Part shown: positions 29,157 to 36,095 of the stretch, piece after piece
How the letters are laid out: each line of letters begins with the position of its first letter
How positions within the stretch are numbered: the stretch's first letter is position 1
Assembly: GCA_023663085.1 (NCBI GenBank)
Contig: JAMPIB010000029.1
Coordinates: 1 to 43,045, forward strand
Length of the DNA stretch: 43,045 nucleotides
From: Ruminococcus sp.
GTDB taxonomy: Bacteria > Bacillota > Clostridia > Lachnospirales > Lachnospiraceae
Direction of reading: 5' to 3'
Notes under the pieces: generated by a model
Told to the model about the DNA's origin: nothing
The model's input: only the letters and a program-made list of their open reading frames with translations
Databases searched by the model: none
Translations under genes and position numbers: made by a program

Positions 29157-30101
29157 ATGGCAAGTATCAGTTTGACAAAAGTAATCGAAAAATGGAAGTG
29201 GGAAAATCTGACGCCGGAGATTGATATTTCCAAAATCAAGATCACGCAGCCTGATATTAACAGACCTGCGTTGCAGTTGGCGGGTTATTTTGAGCATTTC
29301 GAGGCGACCCGATTACAGGTGGTCGGATTTGTGGAATATACTTATATGAACAGTCTCGATGAGGAGACGCAGACGGAGATTTTTGAGAAACTGCTGGATA
29401 ATCCGATTCCCGGCATTGTCTTTTGCAGGGAACTGCATCCGAACGATCGTTTCAGGGAGATCGCAGTCAAACATGGCGTACCGCTTTTGATGAGTGAAAA
29501 GGCTACTTCGGCGTGTATGGCGGAGATCATCCGCTGGCTGAACGTACAGTTGGCGCCATGTATTTCCATTCACGGCGTATTGATAGACGTTTACGGTGAG
29601 GGTGTACTGATCACTGGAGAAAGCGGTATCGGTAAATCGGAGGCCGCGCTGGAACTGATCCAGAGAGGGCACCGTCTGGTGACGGATGACGTAGTGGAAC
29701 TACGGCGTGTCAGCGCGGATACGTTAATCGGTTCTGCGCCGAGTATCACCAAACATTTTATCGAACTGCGCGGTATCGGTATCGTGGATGTAAAGGCGTT
29801 GTTCGGCGCATCCAGTGTCAAGGATACCCAGAACATAGATTTAGTCATCCATTTGGAAGACTGGGATAAGGATAAAGAATATGACCGTCTGGGCATGGAG
29901 GAAGAATATATAGAGTATCTCGGCAATAAAGTAGTCTGTCATAATATCCCCATCAGACCGGGACGTAATCTGGCGATCATCTGTGAATCGGCGGCAGTTA
30001 ATCATCGACAGAAAAAGATGGGTTACAACGCCGCACAGGAATTATATCAGCGTGTTCAAAATTCACTGGCCCGCAGACGGGATGAGGACGAAGACGAATA
30101 A
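29157..30101 (+). CDS. hprK: HPr kinase/phosphorylase
   Basis: Phosphorylates HPr and Crh on Ser46 and removes the phosphate again, which controls carbon catabolite repression in Gram-positive bacteria. The N-terminal domain (about 1-130) is followed by the catalytic domain with Walker A GESGIGKSE (about 158-166), the TDD acidic pair in HRLVTDDVVELR and the signature IELRGIGIVDVKALFG. Length of 314 residues is normal. AAGGAGAGGGG precedes the ATG. It heads the run hprK-ROK kinase-murB-rapZ-whiA-HPr-like, so the kinase and its likely target are in one gene cluster. The 100-base gap before it has no clear promoter. Confidence 0.97.
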   Translation: MASISLTKVIEKWKWENLTPEIDISKIKITQPDINRPALQLAGYFEHFEATRLQVVGFVEYTYMNSLDEETQTEIFEKLLDNPIPGIVFCRELHPNDRFREIAVKHGVPLLMSEKATSACMAEIIRWLNVQLAPCISIHGVLIDVYGEGVLITGESGIGKSEAALELIQRGHRLVTDDVVELRRVSADTLIGSAPSITKHFIELRGIGIVDVKALFGASSVKDTQNIDLVIHLEDWDKDKEYDRLGMEEEYIEYLGNKVVCHNIPIRPGRNLAIICESAAVNHRQKKMGYNAAQELYQRVQNSLARRRDEDEDE

Positions 30102-30146: not shown

Positions 30147-31085
30147 ATGGCAAGTCATGTATTTGGTGTAGATGTAGGCGGTACGACCGTAAAAATGGGG
30201 CTGTTTGATATAAATGGCAATGTTTTGGACAAATGGGAGATTCCGACCAGGACGGAAGATAATGGTAAGAATATCCTGCCGGATATCGCGGCAAGCATAG
30301 AGGCGAAGATGGCTGAAAAGAATCTTGAAAAAGAAGATGTGGCCGGCGTGGGCGTGGGCGTACCCGGCCCTGTCGATGGAGACGGTGTGGTACACAAGGC
30401 CGTGAATCTCGGCTGGGGTCAGTTCAATATGAAAGAAGAACTGACAAAACTGCTCGGAGGAATGCGCGTGGAAGGCGGCAATGACGCTAACGTAGCGGCG
30501 CTGGGAGAAATGTGGAAAGGCGGCGGACAGGGCCATAAAAATCTGGTAGCCGTTACGCTCGGAACAGGTGTTGGCGGCGGCATCATCATCAACGGAGAGA
30601 TCATGACCGGAGCGACCGGAGCAGGCGGTGAGATCGGTCATATCCATGTAGAGGATAACGAAACGGAAAGCTGTGGCTGCGGAAATTACGGATGTCTGGA
30701 AGAATATGCGTCCGCGACCGGGATCACCAGACTGGCCAACAGAGCGTTAAAGGCCAGCGATAAAGACAGCGTACTGCGAAACAGTGAGGTTTCCGCCAAG
30801 ACTGTCTTTGATGCGGTCAAAGCAGGCGATGAACTGGCCATCGAGGTGGCGGAGAAATTCGGTGAATATCTGGGAAAAGGGCTTGGTGTGATCGCCGGTG
30901 TCATCAATCCGGAAATTTTTGTTATCGGCGGCGGCGTTTCCAAGGCGGGTGAAGTACTGTTCGATTATATCAGACCGCCTTTTGAGAAGACGGTCTTTCA
31001 TGGCAGCAGGGATACGATCTTTGCGCTTGCCACGCTTGGAAACGATGCGGGAATATACGGCGCGGCTAAGATGCTTTTAGATTAA
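30147..31085 (+). CDS. ROK-family sugar kinase (probable glucokinase)
   Basis: Phosphorylates glucose or a related hexose with ATP. The N-terminal phosphate loop is VFGVDVGGTTVKMGLFD, the substrate-binding segment EGGNDANVAALGEMWKG carries the catalytic Asp, and LGTGVGGGIIING is the second phosphate loop. The ROK zinc motif is intact: GHIHVEDNETESCGCGNYGCLEEYAS (His and three Cys). There is no N-terminal helix-turn-helix, so it is an enzyme and not a repressor of the XylR/NagC type. The length of 312 residues fits Firmicutes glucokinases. It lies between hprK and murB, probably in one operon. Confidence 0.92.
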   Translation: MASHVFGVDVGGTTVKMGLFDINGNVLDKWEIPTRTEDNGKNILPDIAASIEAKMAEKNLEKEDVAGVGVGVPGPVDGDGVVHKAVNLGWGQFNMKEELTKLLGGMRVEGGNDANVAALGEMWKGGGQGHKNLVAVTLGTGVGGGIIINGEIMTGATGAGGEIGHIHVEDNETESCGCGNYGCLEEYASATGITRLANRALKASDKDSVLRNSEVSAKTVFDAVKAGDELAIEVAEKFGEYLGKGLGVIAGVINPEIFVIGGGVSKAGEVLFDYIRPPFEKTVFHGSRDTIFALATLGNDAGIYGAAKMLLD

Positions 31086-31149: not shown

Positions 31150-32073
31150 GTGAAATTGAGTTTAAATACATCTATATGTAAATATATTGAGAAGATCATT
31201 CCGAAGGAGAGGATACTTTTTCATGAACCCATGAGCAGGCATACGACTTTTAAAGTAGGCGGCGAGGCGGAATGTATGATCCTGATTGAACAGGAGGAAG
31301 AACTGCTGCGGCTCGTACCTTATCTGAATCAGATCGAACAGGATTATTTTATTCTTGGAAACGGCAGTAATCTGCTGGTCGGCGACAGAGGATACCGTGG
31401 TATCATCATCAAACTCGGCGAGGGTATGGAGCGGATAACGGTAGAAGGCGAGTGTATCCGTGTGCAGGCGGGAGCATTGTTATCCCGGACGGCGGCGCGG
31501 GCGAGAGACGCAGGTCTTTCTGGTCTGGAATTTGCGGCAGGAATCCCCGGAAGTGTCGGCGGCGGCGTTGTCATGAACGCGGGAGCCTATGACGGTGAGA
31601 TGAAGCAGATCACAGAATCCGTGAGGGTCATGGATAAAGAAGGAAAAATCCTTGAGTTGGATAACAGTACTATGGAATTCGGTTATCGCACCAGTATCAT
31701 TAAGAACAGACCTTTTATTGTATTGGAAGTCCTTCTGCGGATGCATCCGGCGCCGAGAGAAGAGATCCAGACGAAAATGGATGAACTGATGCAGAAGCGG
31801 TTGAGCAAACAGCCGTTAAATTATCCGAGCGCAGGCAGTACCTTTAAGCGGCCGGAAGGATATTTCGCCGGCAAACTGATCATGGACGCCGGTATGCGCG
31901 GTTATCGTATCGGCGGGGCGCAGATATCCAATAAGCATTGCGGTTTTGTGGTCAATGTCGGTCAGGCGACGGCGGCGGATGTGAAAGAAGTGATCGAGGA
32001 AGTGCAGGAAAGAGTGAGTGAACGCTTTCATGTGAGACTGGAACCGGAGATTATTTTTCTGGGAGATTTTTAA
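31150..32073 (+). CDS. murB: UDP-N-acetylenolpyruvoylglucosamine reductase
   Basis: Flavoenzyme that reduces UDP-GlcNAc-enolpyruvate to UDP-MurNAc in cell wall synthesis, with FAD and NADPH. The FAD domain shows HTTFKVGGEAE, LGNGSNLLVGDRGYRG and FAAGIPGSVGGGVVMNAGAYDGEM; the catalytic Ser is in PSAGSTFKRPEG and the C-terminal Glu in LEPEIIFLG. It is a type II MurB of 307 residues. The start codon is GTG at 31150 with a poor ribosome site (GAGACGG), which may limit translation; a TTG at 31156 is an alternative. Same strand and close spacing with the hprK and rapZ genes. Confidence 0.96.
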   Translation: MKLSLNTSICKYIEKIIPKERILFHEPMSRHTTFKVGGEAECMILIEQEEELLRLVPYLNQIEQDYFILGNGSNLLVGDRGYRGIIIKLGEGMERITVEGECIRVQAGALLSRTAARARDAGLSGLEFAAGIPGSVGGGVVMNAGAYDGEMKQITESVRVMDKEGKILELDNSTMEFGYRTSIIKNRPFIVLEVLLRMHPAPREEIQTKMDELMQKRLSKQPLNYPSAGSTFKRPEGYFAGKLIMDAGMRGYRIGGAQISNKHCGFVVNVGQATAADVKEVIEEVQERVSERFHVRLEPEIIFLGDF

Positions 32074-32109: not shown

Positions 32110-32964
32110 ATGCGATTTGTAGTAGTGACCGGAATGAGCGGCGGTGGCAAGAGTATAACGCTTAAAATGCTGGAAGATCTGGGATTTTACTGCGTGGATA
32201 ACCTGCCGGTGCCGCTTATCGAAAAATTTCTGGAACTGATCGTGACGCCGGGCAGCGAGATCACCAAAGTGGCGCTGGGACTGGATGTGCGTGCCGATCA
32301 GTCTTTTAATGACGTACAGAAGGTTCTGGAGAAGTTAAAGGCGGAAGGATATGTTTTTGAAGTCCTTTTCATGGATGCGAGCGACGCCGTTCTGATCAAA
32401 CGTTATAAGGAAACGAGAAGAGTGCATCCGCTTTCACCCGATGGCAGGATCGAAGATGGCGTTGTCAGAGAGAGAAAGATACTGGAAGACATGAAAAAGA
32501 AGGCGGATTATGTGATAGATACTTCCAATCTGCTGACCAGAGAATTAAAAGAAGAGATGGATCGTATCTTTGTGCTCAACGAAGAATATAATTCTCTTAT
32601 GGTGACGATACTGTCTTTCGGCTTTAAAAACGGCATTCCGGCGGATGCCGATCTGGTCTTTGATGTCAGATTCCTGCCGAATCCGTTTTATATTGATGAA
32701 CTGAAGCATAAGACCGGTAACGATAAAGAGGTGCAGGACTATGTCATGAGTTTTCCGGAAGCCTCGGATTTTATGGAAAAACTGGGGGACATGCTGAAAT
32801 TTCTGATCCCGAATTACGTAAAAGAGGGAAAATACCAACTGGTCGTAGGGATAGGCTGTACGGGCGGAAAGCACAGGAGCGTGACACTGGCCAATGCGCT
32901 GTATGAGCGGATGAAAGATCAGGGAAATTATGGATTGAAACTGTATCACAGGGATATCAAGTAA
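32110..32964 (+). CDS. rapZ: RapZ/YvcJ nucleotide-binding protein
   Basis: P-loop protein of the RapZ family; in E. coli an RNase adaptor that controls glucosamine-6-phosphate synthase mRNA, in Bacillus (YvcJ) linked to competence. Walker A is GMSGGGKS (residues about 8-15), followed by LGFYCVDNLPVPLI; the second motif is DVRADQSF, and the C-terminal domain contains GCTGGKHRSV and ends YHRDIK. Length of 284 residues is normal. It is 36 bases after murB and 17 bases before whiA. In most Firmicutes yvcK lies between rapZ and whiA; here it is absent. Confidence 0.96.
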   Translation: MRFVVVTGMSGGGKSITLKMLEDLGFYCVDNLPVPLIEKFLELIVTPGSEITKVALGLDVRADQSFNDVQKVLEKLKAEGYVFEVLFMDASDAVLIKRYKETRRVHPLSPDGRIEDGVVRERKILEDMKKKADYVIDTSNLLTRELKEEMDRIFVLNEEYNSLMVTILSFGFKNGIPADADLVFDVRFLPNPFYIDELKHKTGNDKEVQDYVMSFPEASDFMEKLGDMLKFLIPNYVKEGKYQLVVGIGCTGGKHRSVTLANALYERMKDQGNYGLKLYHRDIK

Positions 32965-32981
32965 ATTTTGAGGTTGTGCTT

Positions 32982-33860
32982 ATGTCATTTTCCCAAACGG
33001 TAAAGGACGAGCTGGCGGCATATATCAGTCCCGCGAGACATTGTCAGTTAGCGGAATTGGCGGCATTGATCCATTTCGGAGGTCATCGGAGCAGCGATGG
33101 ATTACATCTGGATTTAGACATAGAAAATGAAATGGTTGCCAGAAAGTGCTTTACATTATTGCAAAAAACCTTTAATATAGATAATGTTATGCGGGAAGTG
33201 GAGGAAGAAAAAATCCTTCAGGCGCTTCATCTGTATGACGCTGGCCACCATATCCTGTCTCTGGATATGCCGGTAAATGCTCTGCTCATTAAGAACAGTT
33301 GCTGTGCGCGCGCCTATTTAAGAGGTGTTTTTCTTTGTGCCGGGTCGATGAGCGATCCGGAGAAAAGCTATCATCTGGAATTCGTATGCGGCAGGAGTGA
33401 GCAGGCGGAACAGTTGCGGCGCATTATCCGGGAGTTTCAGATAGAAGCCAGAGTGATCAGACGTAAGAAGTATTATATTGTGTATTTAAAAGAGGGTTCC
33501 GGAATCGTAGATCTGCTTAATGTAATGGGCGCACATGTGTCGTTGATGAATCTGGAAAATCTGCGTATTGTCAAGGAAATGCGCAATTCCATAAACAGGC
33601 GGGTTAATTGTGAAGCCGCCAATATCACCAAGACCGTAAATGCCGCATCCAAACAGATAGAAGACATTCTGCTGATTCAGAAACAGTATGGATTTGAAAA
33701 CTTACCGGATAATCTGCGGCAGATGGCAGAAGTCCGTTTAGAGTATCCGGAAGCTCCTTTAAAAGAACTTGGGGAGTATCTGGATCCGCCGGTCGGTAAA
33801 TCCGGTGTCAATCACCGACTGCGGAAATTAAGCGAGATTGCTGAACATATGAGGTTATAG
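32982..33860 (+). CDS. whiA: WhiA-family DNA-binding protein
   Basis: Conserved Gram-positive regulator linked to sporulation in Streptomyces and to cell division and chromosome segregation in Bacillus. The N-terminal part has a degenerate LAGLIDADG fold (about 20-190: CARAYLRGVFLCAGSMSDPEKSYHLEF), the C-terminal part a WhiA helix-turn-helix (about 220-292: RVNCEAANITKTV, LKELGEYLDPPVGKSGVNHRLRKLSEIA). I chose the ATG at 32982 because TGAGG lies 8 bases upstream; a GTG two codons earlier is possible. It follows rapZ by 17 bases and precedes the HPr-like gene by 14. Confidence 0.96.
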   Translation: MSFSQTVKDELAAYISPARHCQLAELAALIHFGGHRSSDGLHLDLDIENEMVARKCFTLLQKTFNIDNVMREVEEEKILQALHLYDAGHHILSLDMPVNALLIKNSCCARAYLRGVFLCAGSMSDPEKSYHLEFVCGRSEQAEQLRRIIREFQIEARVIRRKKYYIVYLKEGSGIVDLLNVMGAHVSLMNLENLRIVKEMRNSINRRVNCEAANITKTVNAASKQIEDILLIQKQYGFENLPDNLRQMAEVRLEYPEAPLKELGEYLDPPVGKSGVNHRLRKLSEIAEHMRL

Positions 33861-33874
33861 AAGGAGGAGAACTT

Positions 33875-34132
33875 ATGATTGAAAAATCTGTCCAAATTAA
33901 GTTGGAAGGCGGCCTGGAGGCCAGACCGGTGGCAGTACTCGTACAGGTGGCAAGCCAGTATGACAGCAGCGTGTACATTCAGTCGGCTAACAAAAAAGTA
34001 AATGCCAAAAGTATCATGGGCATGATGGGTCTTGGTCTGGCTATGGGCGAAACAGTAACCGTTATTGCTGACGGAAACGATGAAGAAGCGGCAGCAGCGG
34101 GCATTGAAGGATTTTTAAGCGGCAATCAGTAA
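33875..34132 (+). CDS. HPr-like protein with Glu15, Crh-type
   Basis: An 85-residue protein of the HPr fold, the phosphocarrier of the sugar phosphotransferase system. Where HPr has the phosphorylated His in GLHARPA, this protein has Glu15 (GLEARPV, codon GAG at 33917-33919). The regulatory Ser46 is kept in NAKSIMGMMGLGL, the site of HprK. Bacillus Crh has Gln at 15 and Ser46, and works only in catabolite repression with CcpA. This protein should therefore be unable to carry PTS phosphate but able to be phosphorylated by HprK, encoded in the same gene run. Glu might also mimic phospho-His; that is inference. A strong AAGGAGGAG site and a terminator at 34146 show that it ends the operon. Confidence 0.93.
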   Translation: MIEKSVQIKLEGGLEARPVAVLVQVASQYDSSVYIQSANKKVNAKSIMGMMGLGLAMGETVTVIADGNDEEAAAAGIEGFLSGNQ

Positions 34133-34145
34133 GGCATAGGATAAA

Positions 34146-34176
34146 GGGGATTCCCGGAAAGGGAGTCTCTTTTTTT
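34146..34176 (+). terminator. terminator of the hprK-whiA-HPr-like operon
   Basis: GGGATTCCC (34147-34155) pairs with GGGAGTCTC (34161-34169), two G-T pairs, loop GGAAA, followed by seven T residues. Confidence 0.9.
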
Positions 34177-34213
34177 CCAGAAATAACAGATAAAAAGCAG
34201 AGGAGGACACCGC

Positions 34214-35104
34214 ATGGATAAAAATATGCTTTTTGTTTATAATCCGAGAGCTGGCAAGGCGAAGATCAGAAGCAATCTGCTGGATATCATTGATACGTTT
34301 GTCAAGGCGGGATACGAGGTGACCGCGTATCCGACGCAGGCATCGGGAGATGCGGTCGATGTGGTGAAAAATCGGCGGGAAGGATATGATATTGTCGCAT
34401 GCTGCGGCGGAGACGGGACACTGGATGAAGTGGTCACCGGAATGATGTCAAGCAGTAAGAAACTGCCGATCGGTTATGTTCCTGCGGGCAGTACCAACGA
34501 TTTTGCCAGTAGTCTCGGCATTCCGCGCGGCATGGTCAAGGCGGCGGATGTCGTGGTCGATGGCAGGGATTTTGGCTGTGACATAGGCGCTTTTAATGAT
34601 GATTATTTTATTTATGTGGCGGCTTTTGGGATTTTTACGGATGTATCTTATGAGACGAAGCAGGATGTGAAAAATGTGCTGGGACATGCCGCCTATCTGT
34701 TAGAAGGAGTGAAAAGGCTCTCTTCTATCAGATCTTACCGGATGAAGATACAATATGACGATGTCTGTCTGGAAAATGAATATATTTACGGGATGATAAC
34801 TAATTCCAATTCCGTCGGCGGCTTTAAAGGCATTACCGGAAAAGATGTGGAGTTAAACGATGGCCTTTTCGAAGTAACACTGATCAAAAAGCCGTCTAAT
34901 CCGCTGGATATCAATAATATCGTTATGGCATTGGCGGATAAGAGGATCCAGTCTGATGCAATCCTTTGTTTTAAGACTTCCAGACTGGTCATAGAGTCCG
35001 ATGAGGGTGTTGCCTGGACGTTAGACGGTGAATTTGGCGGAGAACATACGATGGCGGTCATAGAGAACAAAAAAGAAGCACTAAAGATCAGGATACCGCG
35101 GTAA
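34214..35104 (+). CDS. diacylglycerol kinase-family lipid kinase
   Basis: Member of the DagK/YegS lipid kinase family, 296 residues, expected at the inner face of the membrane, making phosphatidic acid or a related lipid from ATP. The N-terminal domain shows FVYNPRAGKAK, the nucleotide motif CCGGDGTLDEVVTGM and VPAGSTNDFASSLGIP; the C-terminal beta-domain contains DIGAFNDDYFIYVAAFGIFTDVSY and LDGEFGGEH. AGAGGAGG precedes the start. It follows a strong terminator and seems to be transcribed alone. The exact substrate cannot be read from the sequence. Confidence 0.92.
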   Translation: MDKNMLFVYNPRAGKAKIRSNLLDIIDTFVKAGYEVTAYPTQASGDAVDVVKNRREGYDIVACCGGDGTLDEVVTGMMSSSKKLPIGYVPAGSTNDFASSLGIPRGMVKAADVVVDGRDFGCDIGAFNDDYFIYVAAFGIFTDVSYETKQDVKNVLGHAAYLLEGVKRLSSIRSYRMKIQYDDVCLENEYIYGMITNSNSVGGFKGITGKDVELNDGLFEVTLIKKPSNPLDINNIVMALADKRIQSDAILCFKTSRLVIESDEGVAWTLDGEFGGEHTMAVIENKKEALKIRIPR

Positions 35105-35142: not shown

Positions 35143-35171
35143 TTTTCTTTTTAAGCAGAATGCGGTATAAT
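35143..35171 (+). promoter_or_regulatory. candidate promoter of fba
   Basis: A perfect TATAAT lies at 35166-35171; the -35 at 17 bases distance (TTTCTT at 35143-35148) is poor. The leader to the ATG at 35232 would be about 55 bases. Confidence 0.5.
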
Positions 35172-35231
35172 GTCATCAATGAGTTAGGTGGACAGCCTGC
35201 GTATGAAAAAATTATAATGGAGGTAATAAAG

Positions 35232-36095
35232 ATGTTAGTTTCAGCAACAGAAATGCTTCAAAAAGCAGTAGCTGGTCATTATGCAGTAGGCCAGTTCAAT
35301 ATCAACAACCTTGAGTGGACGAAAGCAATCCTTCTTACAGCACAGGAATGCAATTCTCCGGTCATTCTGGGTGTATCTGAAGGCGCCGGCAAGTATATGG
35401 GCGGATATGATGTCGTTATGGGTATGGTAAACGGACTGATCAAAGATCAGAACATCACGGTTCCCGTAGCTGTGCATCTGGATCATGGTTCTTACGATCA
35501 CTGCTACAAATGTATGGAGGCAGGATTCCCTTCCGTTATGTTTGATGGTTCCAAGTATTCTATCGAAGAGAATATTGCAAAGACCAAAGAACTGGTAGAG
35601 GCTGCTCATGCCAAGGGAATTTCCATTGAGGCGGAAGTTGGTTCTATCGGCGGTGAAGAAGACGGCGTCGTAGGTATGGGTGAATGTGCAGATCCCGCTG
35701 AATGTAAGCAGATCGCAGATCTGGGCGTAGATTTTCTGGCAGCAGGTATCGGTAATATCCATGGTAAATATCCTGAAAACTGGAAAGGTTTACAGTTCGA
35801 TGTACTTGCATCCGTTCAGGAGAAGACAGGAACACTTCCGTTAGTTCTTCACGGCGGCACAGGTATTCCGGATGATATGATTAAGAAAGCAATCTCTCTG
35901 GGCGTTGCCAAGATCAATGTTAATACAGAATGCCAGCTGGTATTTGCAGAAGCAACACGTAAATACATCGAGGCAGGCAAGGATCTGGAAGGTAAAGGAT
36001 TCGATCCTCGTAAAGTTCTTGCACCCGGTTACGAAGCTATCAAGGCGAAAGTAAAAGAGAAGATGGAATTATTCGGTTCTGTCGGCAAGGCTTAA
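35232..36095 (+). CDS. fba: class II fructose-bisphosphate aldolase
   Basis: Zinc enzyme of glycolysis that splits fructose-1,6-bisphosphate into two triose phosphates. Zinc and catalytic residues are visible: VAVHLDHGSYDHC (Asp and His), a Glu-rich loop EAEVGSIGGEED, IGNIHGKYPEN (His), and LHGGTGIPDD (His), followed by KINVNTE. Length of 287 residues fits the Bacillus FbaA type; closely related tagatose-bisphosphate aldolases are an alternative. I chose the ATG at 35232 because GGAGGT lies 8 bases upstream; an in-frame ATG at 35160 covers the promoter. Two hairpins follow the gene. Confidence 0.94.
   Translation: MLVSATEMLQKAVAGHYAVGQFNINNLEWTKAILLTAQECNSPVILGVSEGAGKYMGGYDVVMGMVNGLIKDQNITVPVAVHLDHGSYDHCYKCMEAGFPSVMFDGSKYSIEENIAKTKELVEAAHAKGISIEAEVGSIGGEEDGVVGMGECADPAECKQIADLGVDFLAAGIGNIHGKYPENWKGLQFDVLASVQEKTGTLPLVLHGGTGIPDDMIKKAISLGVAKINVNTECQLVFAEATRKYIEAGKDLEGKGFDPRKVLAPGYEAIKAKVKEKMELFGSVGKA

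Follow-up and report, generated by a model that had tools for sequence, protein, structure and literature searches.

In the Bacillus model, from which one usually starts, HPr is both a PTS carrier and a target of HprK, a kinase activated by fructose bisphosphate, and the resulting signal is read out by CcpA, the textbook partner. How the Lachnospiraceae, which are common gut bacteria, choose among sugars has received little description in the literature that we searched, and among the matches listed by these searches, in which subscription journals were thinly covered, there was no report on an HPr carrying Glu15 or on HPr together with HprK in this family.

The closest described counterpart is Crh, known from B. 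subtilis (PDB 1mo1 and 1zvv), Geobacillus and Parageobacillus, a protein of the HPr family in which His15 is replaced by Gln15 and Ser46 is kept in the motif KSIMG. The excerpts of PMC10714963 place the B. subtilis crh gene directly downstream of whiA, and those of PMC13130090 describe the inhibition of MgsA by unphosphorylated Crh. Ccel_0806 of Clostridium cellulolyticum is likewise a Crh-like protein; in the available part of PMC3656788 this organism is described as seeming to be without an HPr orthologue or cognate EII, and the authors' model uses CcpA-type partners, with Ccel_0806 drawn as signalling to CcpA homologues. Additionally, the HprK of Xanthomonas campestris, from a Gram-negative lineage, is discussed in the retrieved text of PMC6916182 against the background of an incomplete PTS and, as is done here, is treated separately from the complete PTS scheme of Gram-positive bacteria.

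The gene described here occupies the same place as B. subtilis crh, directly downstream of whiA, in a 43,045-nucleotide stretch of Ruminococcus sp. DNA (the window, meaning the whole stretch that was analyzed), and its product is referred to as the whiA-linked HPr. The genes follow the order hprK, ROK glucokinase, murB, rapZ, whiA and hpr, with whiA ending at 33860, 14 bases before hpr. The features of the run and of the sequence that follows it are:

29157..30101, + strand: hprK, HPr(Ser) kinase/phosphorylase (TIGR00679, 367.9 bits, cut-off 240)
30147..31085, + strand: ROK-family glucokinase (TIGR00744, 309.9 bits, cut-off 260.35)
31150..32073, + strand: murB (NF010480, 367 bits, cut-off 259)
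32110..32964, + strand: rapZ (NF003828, 358 bits, cut-off 244)
32976..33860, + strand: whiA (TIGR00647, 280.9 bits, cut-off 44.1)
33861..33869, + strand: strong ribosome-binding site aaggaggag, 5' of the ATG at 33875 (read from the sequence)
33875..34132, + strand: whiA-linked HPr with Glu15 and Ser46 (translation, PF00381, phmmer against structures)
34143..34173, + strand: likely intrinsic terminator directly 3' of the whiA-linked HPr (folding of 34138-34178)
34214..35104, + strand: YegS/BmrU-type lipid kinase (TIGR00147, 193 bits, cut-off 118.65)
35160..36095, + strand: class II fructose-bisphosphate aldolase (TIGR01859, 391 bits, cut-off 343.05)

An earlier sequence-only reading had placed hprK, whiA and rapZ in one run, and curated models match all three genes; the hprK product is presumed to be the kinase for Ser46 of the whiA-linked HPr. 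Translation of positions 33875-34132 on the forward strand gives an 85-residue HPr-family protein, MIEKSVQIKLEGGLEARPVAVLVQ...KKVNAKSIMGMMGLG..., which matches PF00381 with 98.6 bits against a cut-off of 23 (E 5.7e-28), and a chance open reading frame was therefore ruled out. The same reading had stated that Glu replaces His15, that Ser46 is intact in the context AKSIMG and that known Crh has Gln15. The codons gag (33917-33919) for Glu15 and agt (34010-34012) for Ser46 confirm the statements on these two residues, and B. subtilis Crh indeed reads GLQARP.

The hairpin directly 3' of the gene has 13 pairs and a 5-base loop and runs into T-rich sequence. Folding of 34138-34178 gave -21 kcal/mol (z -3.37, with 1 of 200 shuffles equally good), and the hairpin was not called by a stricter terminator scan. 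Since the hairpin and its T run come straight after the gene, the transcript probably ends with the whiA-linked HPr, and the YegS/BmrU-type lipid kinase probably lies on a separate one.

The gene order was compared with the loci of named relatives, of which the 80 best out of 525 were used; 17 of the 80 were below full length, and their titles included Lachnospiraceae, Butyrivibrio, Lacrimispora (with L. algidixylanolytica), Acetatifactor and one MAG titled Bacillus sp. In this set whiA was recognised in 79 loci and, under a strict gap rule, immediately preceded the HPr gene in the same orientation in 75, and murB, rapZ and the glucokinase were recognisable in 76, 73 and 65 loci, respectively. 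The class II fructose-bisphosphate aldolase, which in the window is the second gene after the whiA-linked HPr, was recognised in 33 of the 80, some of which are incomplete.

The explanation that we consider probable is that the whiA-linked HPr is a signalling protein addressed by HprK only, working like Crh and in Crh's gene position. It builds on what was observed: residues 15 and 46 and how well they are conserved, the order of the genes, the finding of hprK, a complementary HPr in the same genome and the fact that the gene persists where Enzyme I was not detected. HprK from the same gene run would phosphorylate Ser46 at high levels of glycolytic intermediates, and Glu15 in place of His15 would prevent normal phosphate uptake from Enzyme I. 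Because Glu15 would bar this transfer, the signal would be cut off from PTS traffic and report HprK input only. The downstream target may well not be CcpA, and a candidate is binding of the unphosphorylated protein to methylglyoxal synthase, as for Crh. A search for mgsA was positive in 29 of 35 genomes, the source genome included. G058 keeps the whiA-linked HPr but gave no match for mgsA, and the distribution is thus not decisive for MgsA as an obligatory partner.

The classification of the protein as a Crh-type regulator, made in the sequence-only reading, stood in part. The match to PF00381, the loss of His15, Ser46 within KSIMG and the position after whiA are all shared with Crh, whereas the residue at position 15 is Glu rather than Gln, and the match to NF010354 (PRK13782, output name 'HPr family phosphocarrier protein'), which we take to be the Crh model, reached 92.8 bits and fell below the cut-off of 123, although it scored best among the nine models listed. 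With classical HPr (PtsH) the protein shares PF00381, Arg17 and the Ser46 site, but it is without His15 and does not lie beside Enzyme I. A phmmer search against solved structures placed 3le1 and 3le5 closest, both 'HPr-related proteins' with His15, followed by B. subtilis Crh, before the other HPrs listed. In a tree of 52 HPr-family proteins, built on only 86-87 columns and with many forks left open, a branch supported at 96/99 separated the acidic sequences, together with one carrying Ile15, from B. subtilis Crh; without the residue-15 column the same branch received 93/95. The whiA-linked HPr and B. subtilis Crh may have lost His15 convergently.

WhiA, and not HPr, served as the bait in our survey of the Lachnospirales, so that residue 15 was unselected. 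The whiA gene was found in 59 of 61 genomes (the source genome counted), and all 59 places were read. An HPr adjoins whiA at 52 of them, with Glu15 in 49, Asp15 in two, Ile15 in one and Ser46 in every case, and at the other seven no HPr was found beside whiA. All 36 source-genus genomes having whiA carry Glu15 in the whiA-linked HPr, which rules out a sequencing error or single-strain oddity, and the 16 whiA-linked HPrs of other families comprise 13 with Glu, two with Asp and one with Ile. Three more genera of Lachnospiraceae, reached by the class survey, all have Glu15 and Ser46 and bring the WhiA-bait total to 55 (52 Glu15, two Asp15, one Ile15; Ser46 in 55/55). Residue 15 of whiA-adjacent homologues, for which a check had been proposed in the sequence-only reading, is thus acidic in 54 of 55 and nearly fixed across the order, and this unusual acidic residue recurs in gut-dwelling Lachnospiraceae and in related families. 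Arg17 is kept in most whiA-linked HPrs of the order.

A survey of the class Clostridia covered 147 genomes, 145 of them with whiA; 130 whiA places were newly read (30 loci and 100 stretches), three had been read earlier, and 12 were left out (nine unretrieved, two at contig ends, one split over contigs). Four of the stretches are cut by a contig end, two of these to under 1 kb (L254 and L267). Outside the order, 17 whiA-linked HPrs were obtained, three of which are near copies of others and were excluded from the trees. Their residue 15 is Gln in six, His in five, Lys in two and Thr, Arg, Tyr or Asn in one each; none is acidic, and Ser46 is present in 17/17. As residue 15 is of many types there, the loss of His15 beside whiA apparently happened on more than one occasion, and in this sample only the Lachnospirales settled on a carboxylate, which is thus lineage-specific at the old phosphorylation site.

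The wide variation of residue 15 outside the order might suggest a decaying PTS HPr without function, a reading that we find barely credible for the Lachnospirales gene, given that Asn43 and Lys45-Ser46-Ile47-Met48-Gly49 are invariant in 22/22 diverse sequences of the acidic clade, on which ground decay was rejected, that HPr is present at 52 of the 59 whiA places and that the ribosome-binding site is strong. A more tenable idea, which we nevertheless consider less likely than not, is that Glu15 acts as a built-in mimic of phospho-His15 that would lock HprK or an output partner in one mode, the carboxylate itself being functional; it is compatible with signalling by HprK only. The contrast between the order (Glu or Asp in 54/55) and the rest of the class (0/17), both with WhiA as bait, speaks for it, as do the named loci (the 80 best out of 525, obtained with two search patterns, one of which demanded Glu15), where residue 15 is Glu in 74, Asp in five and Gln in one. 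In one of these (L295) a one-residue insertion shifts column 15, and it was counted as Glu because GLEARP was recognised by eye. Two HPrs (L059 and L068) retain Glu15 and Ser46 with Arg17 replaced by Glu or Asp, so that the acidic residue is also found there without the arginine. On the other side, because one origin of the residue is possible on the trees, its conservation could partly be inheritance; moreover, one Enzyme I-negative genome has Ile15. Phosphorylation at His15 and at Ser46 is described as mutually antagonistic in the excerpts of PMC3526391, and HPr phosphorylated at both sites is said there not to bind CcpA; thus, a permanent mimic could weaken both HprK phosphorylation and CcpA binding.

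Coupling to the PTS was followed through the distribution of Enzyme I and hprK. Enzyme I (PF05524) was not found in nine of 27 genomes of the order, six of which keep a whiA-linked HPr with Ser46 (G042, G043, G046, G054, G056 and G058). Three more PF05524-negative genomes have the gene as well (G135, 100% complete, and G041 and G044, both below 90% complete), giving nine genomes of the order in which the whiA-linked HPr is kept without a PF05524 match, with hprK confirmed in seven. The kinase gene was found in 26 of the 27 genomes and also in G135; the genome G048 gave no match for hprK, Enzyme I or HPr. Four genomes have hprK and no HPr adjoining whiA (G040, G050, G051 and G055), one of which, G055 (99% complete), gave no HPr match anywhere, and hprK therefore does not always need the whiA-linked HPr. 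Such absences from profile searches are no proof, because the B. subtilis control genome gave no match to the hprK or whiA models, although B. subtilis has both; part of the sequence may be absent from that control.

The presence of Enzyme I requires at least seven changes on the gene tree (a tree of genes and not of species), with 12 of the 21 coded members having it and nine being without it, whereas residue 15 needs two within the acidic clade. In genomes of the class from other orders, Enzyme I matched in 3 of 13 that have a whiA-linked HPr versus 9 of 13 that have none (Fisher p 0.047), the first set being 13 of the 17 and the second a non-random choice from the best whiA matches. Since the gene persists without detected Enzyme I and the source genome has a separate PTS HPr, PTS transfer is unlikely to be its conserved job. 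Glu15 could still take an acyl phosphate from Enzyme I, such that the protein continues to serve the PTS. This is chemically possible, the His15Asp form of E. coli HPr reportedly accepts phosphate, and the 12 coded clade members with Enzyme I would allow it. We regard it as very improbable, however, because genomes with no detected Enzyme I still carry the residue, a separate HPr next to Enzyme I is dedicated to the PTS in the source genome, and a Listeria His15Asp protein is cited in the retrieved part of PMC3526391 as losing over 96% of PTS activity. As the same acidic residue recurs, also without detected Enzyme I, the whiA-linked HPr seems to serve as a dedicated signal of the metabolic state. 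This agrees with the proposal of a dedicated signalling protein in the sequence-only reading, the gene lying in the whiA position of crh and persisting where Enzyme I was not found.

Whether this signal reaches a CcpA-type repressor bears on an alternative in which the protein is an ordinary Crh, that is, a Ser46-phosphorylated co-repressor binding such a repressor, with Glu15 merely standing for Gln15. The gene position, the place of Crh among the nearest solved relatives and the retention of KSIMG and Arg17 in most sequences are in its favor, but the repressors themselves make it unlikely. The CcpA model TIGR01481 was above cut-off in none of 30 genomes, with 2 of 14 controls passing, and two genomes that are both 100% complete and carry hprK and a whiA-linked HPr, G157 (Glu15) and G046 (Ile15), gave no match to it at E 0.001. 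Thirteen LacI-type matches were found in the source genome, none above the CcpA-model cut-off. Eleven of them were aligned to B. megaterium CcpA (two were dropped for length), and none combines Tyr295, Asp296, Arg303 and Lys307, residues that, the arginine apart, we take to be the CcpA signature for binding HPr-Ser-P; one, L411, keeps the equivalents of Arg303 and Lys307, a point for the ordinary Crh. The arginine is named as the most important CcpA residue in the excerpts of PMC4591507, where it is numbered Arg304; by our own matching this is Arg303 here. The full signature was also found in 0 of 15 best LacI matches from genomes of the order and in 3 of 13 best matches from outside it, in genomes whose HPr has Gln15 or His15, in a comparison that used the best match only for most genomes and dropped seven long frames, two of them from the source genome.

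A His15Asp form of HPr in T. saccharolyticum relieved catabolite repression according to the retrieved text of PMC3526391, whose authors speculate that lower sugar import and disturbed CcpA binding were responsible, and a His15Asp-type HPr is cited there as still phosphorylatable on serine. An acidic residue 15 would by analogy be expected to weaken CcpA binding and not serve it, which would stand against the ordinary Crh and would fit an HprK target that does not signal through CcpA. CcpA is thus a doubtful partner of the whiA-linked HPr. Going further than HprK-only signalling in the manner of Crh, one may tentatively view HprK and the carboxylate-15 HPr as a module uncoupled from both PTS input and CcpA output. 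The acidic residue would repel CcpA-type partners, and the phospho-switch at Ser46 would act elsewhere, for example on an enzyme such as methylglyoxal synthase or on the cell-wall and division functions of rapZ and whiA. The HprK branch survives without detected Enzyme I and, in two complete genomes, without a CcpA-model match, and the role of HprK and a PTS-dead HPr besides CcpA is directly testable in this natural PTS-free setting.

The sequence-only reading had also called for a genuine HPr elsewhere in the genome. A PF00381 search of the source genome identified six places, the whiA-linked gene included, so that a strain with no other HPr gene was ruled out, and three separate HPrs with His15 were found. 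The first lies in C12 (L070), an operon nagA-nagB-EIIBC-HPr-EI-EIIA that by its translations encodes an N-acetylglucosamine-type PTS and contains the single PF05524 match of the genome; this HPr has His15 and Lys46. The second, C37 (L069:5843-7429, - strand), has His15 and Ser46 and lies beside a 427-residue Enzyme I-like protein (PF02896) that gave no PF05524 match, and the third, C34, whose neighbor is a glmM-like gene, likewise has both residues (Ser46 in AKSVLS). The PTS-operon HPr, having Lys46, cannot be a Ser46 substrate, and the whiA-linked HPr, having Glu15, cannot be a His15 carrier. Judged by these residues, the two classical HPr jobs appear largely split in the source genome between different proteins, one with His15 and Lys46 and one with Glu15 and Ser46, although C37 and C34 combine both sites and the split is therefore not clean.

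Adjacency of HPr and Enzyme I in other genomes was judged from coordinates. Among eight source-genus genomes inventoried, four have an HPr beside Enzyme I (G000, G013, G033 and G036), each with Lys46, and no such HPr was found in the other four; G036 has a second Enzyme I-adjacent HPr, in which Ser46 is kept. Outside the source genus, the nine Enzyme I-adjacent HPrs have Ser46 in seven, Lys46 in one and Gly46 in one, and an order-wide split of this kind was therefore dropped.

The remaining places hold short HPr-like proteins. C39 (L071:4727-4960) is without the His15 loop and keeps the Ser46 motif (VIDAKSIMGIFSLDLS); it has close relatives in many of 20 inventoried genomes, including the Enzyme I-negative G042, G046 and G056, and is a possible further HprK target. 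C16 (L140:3905-4195, - strand), which falls below the PF00381 cut-off, is likewise without His15, has the Ser46 motif VDAKSIIGVLGLNF and has relatives in G018, G033 and G036. Both proteins could share or take the HprK role.
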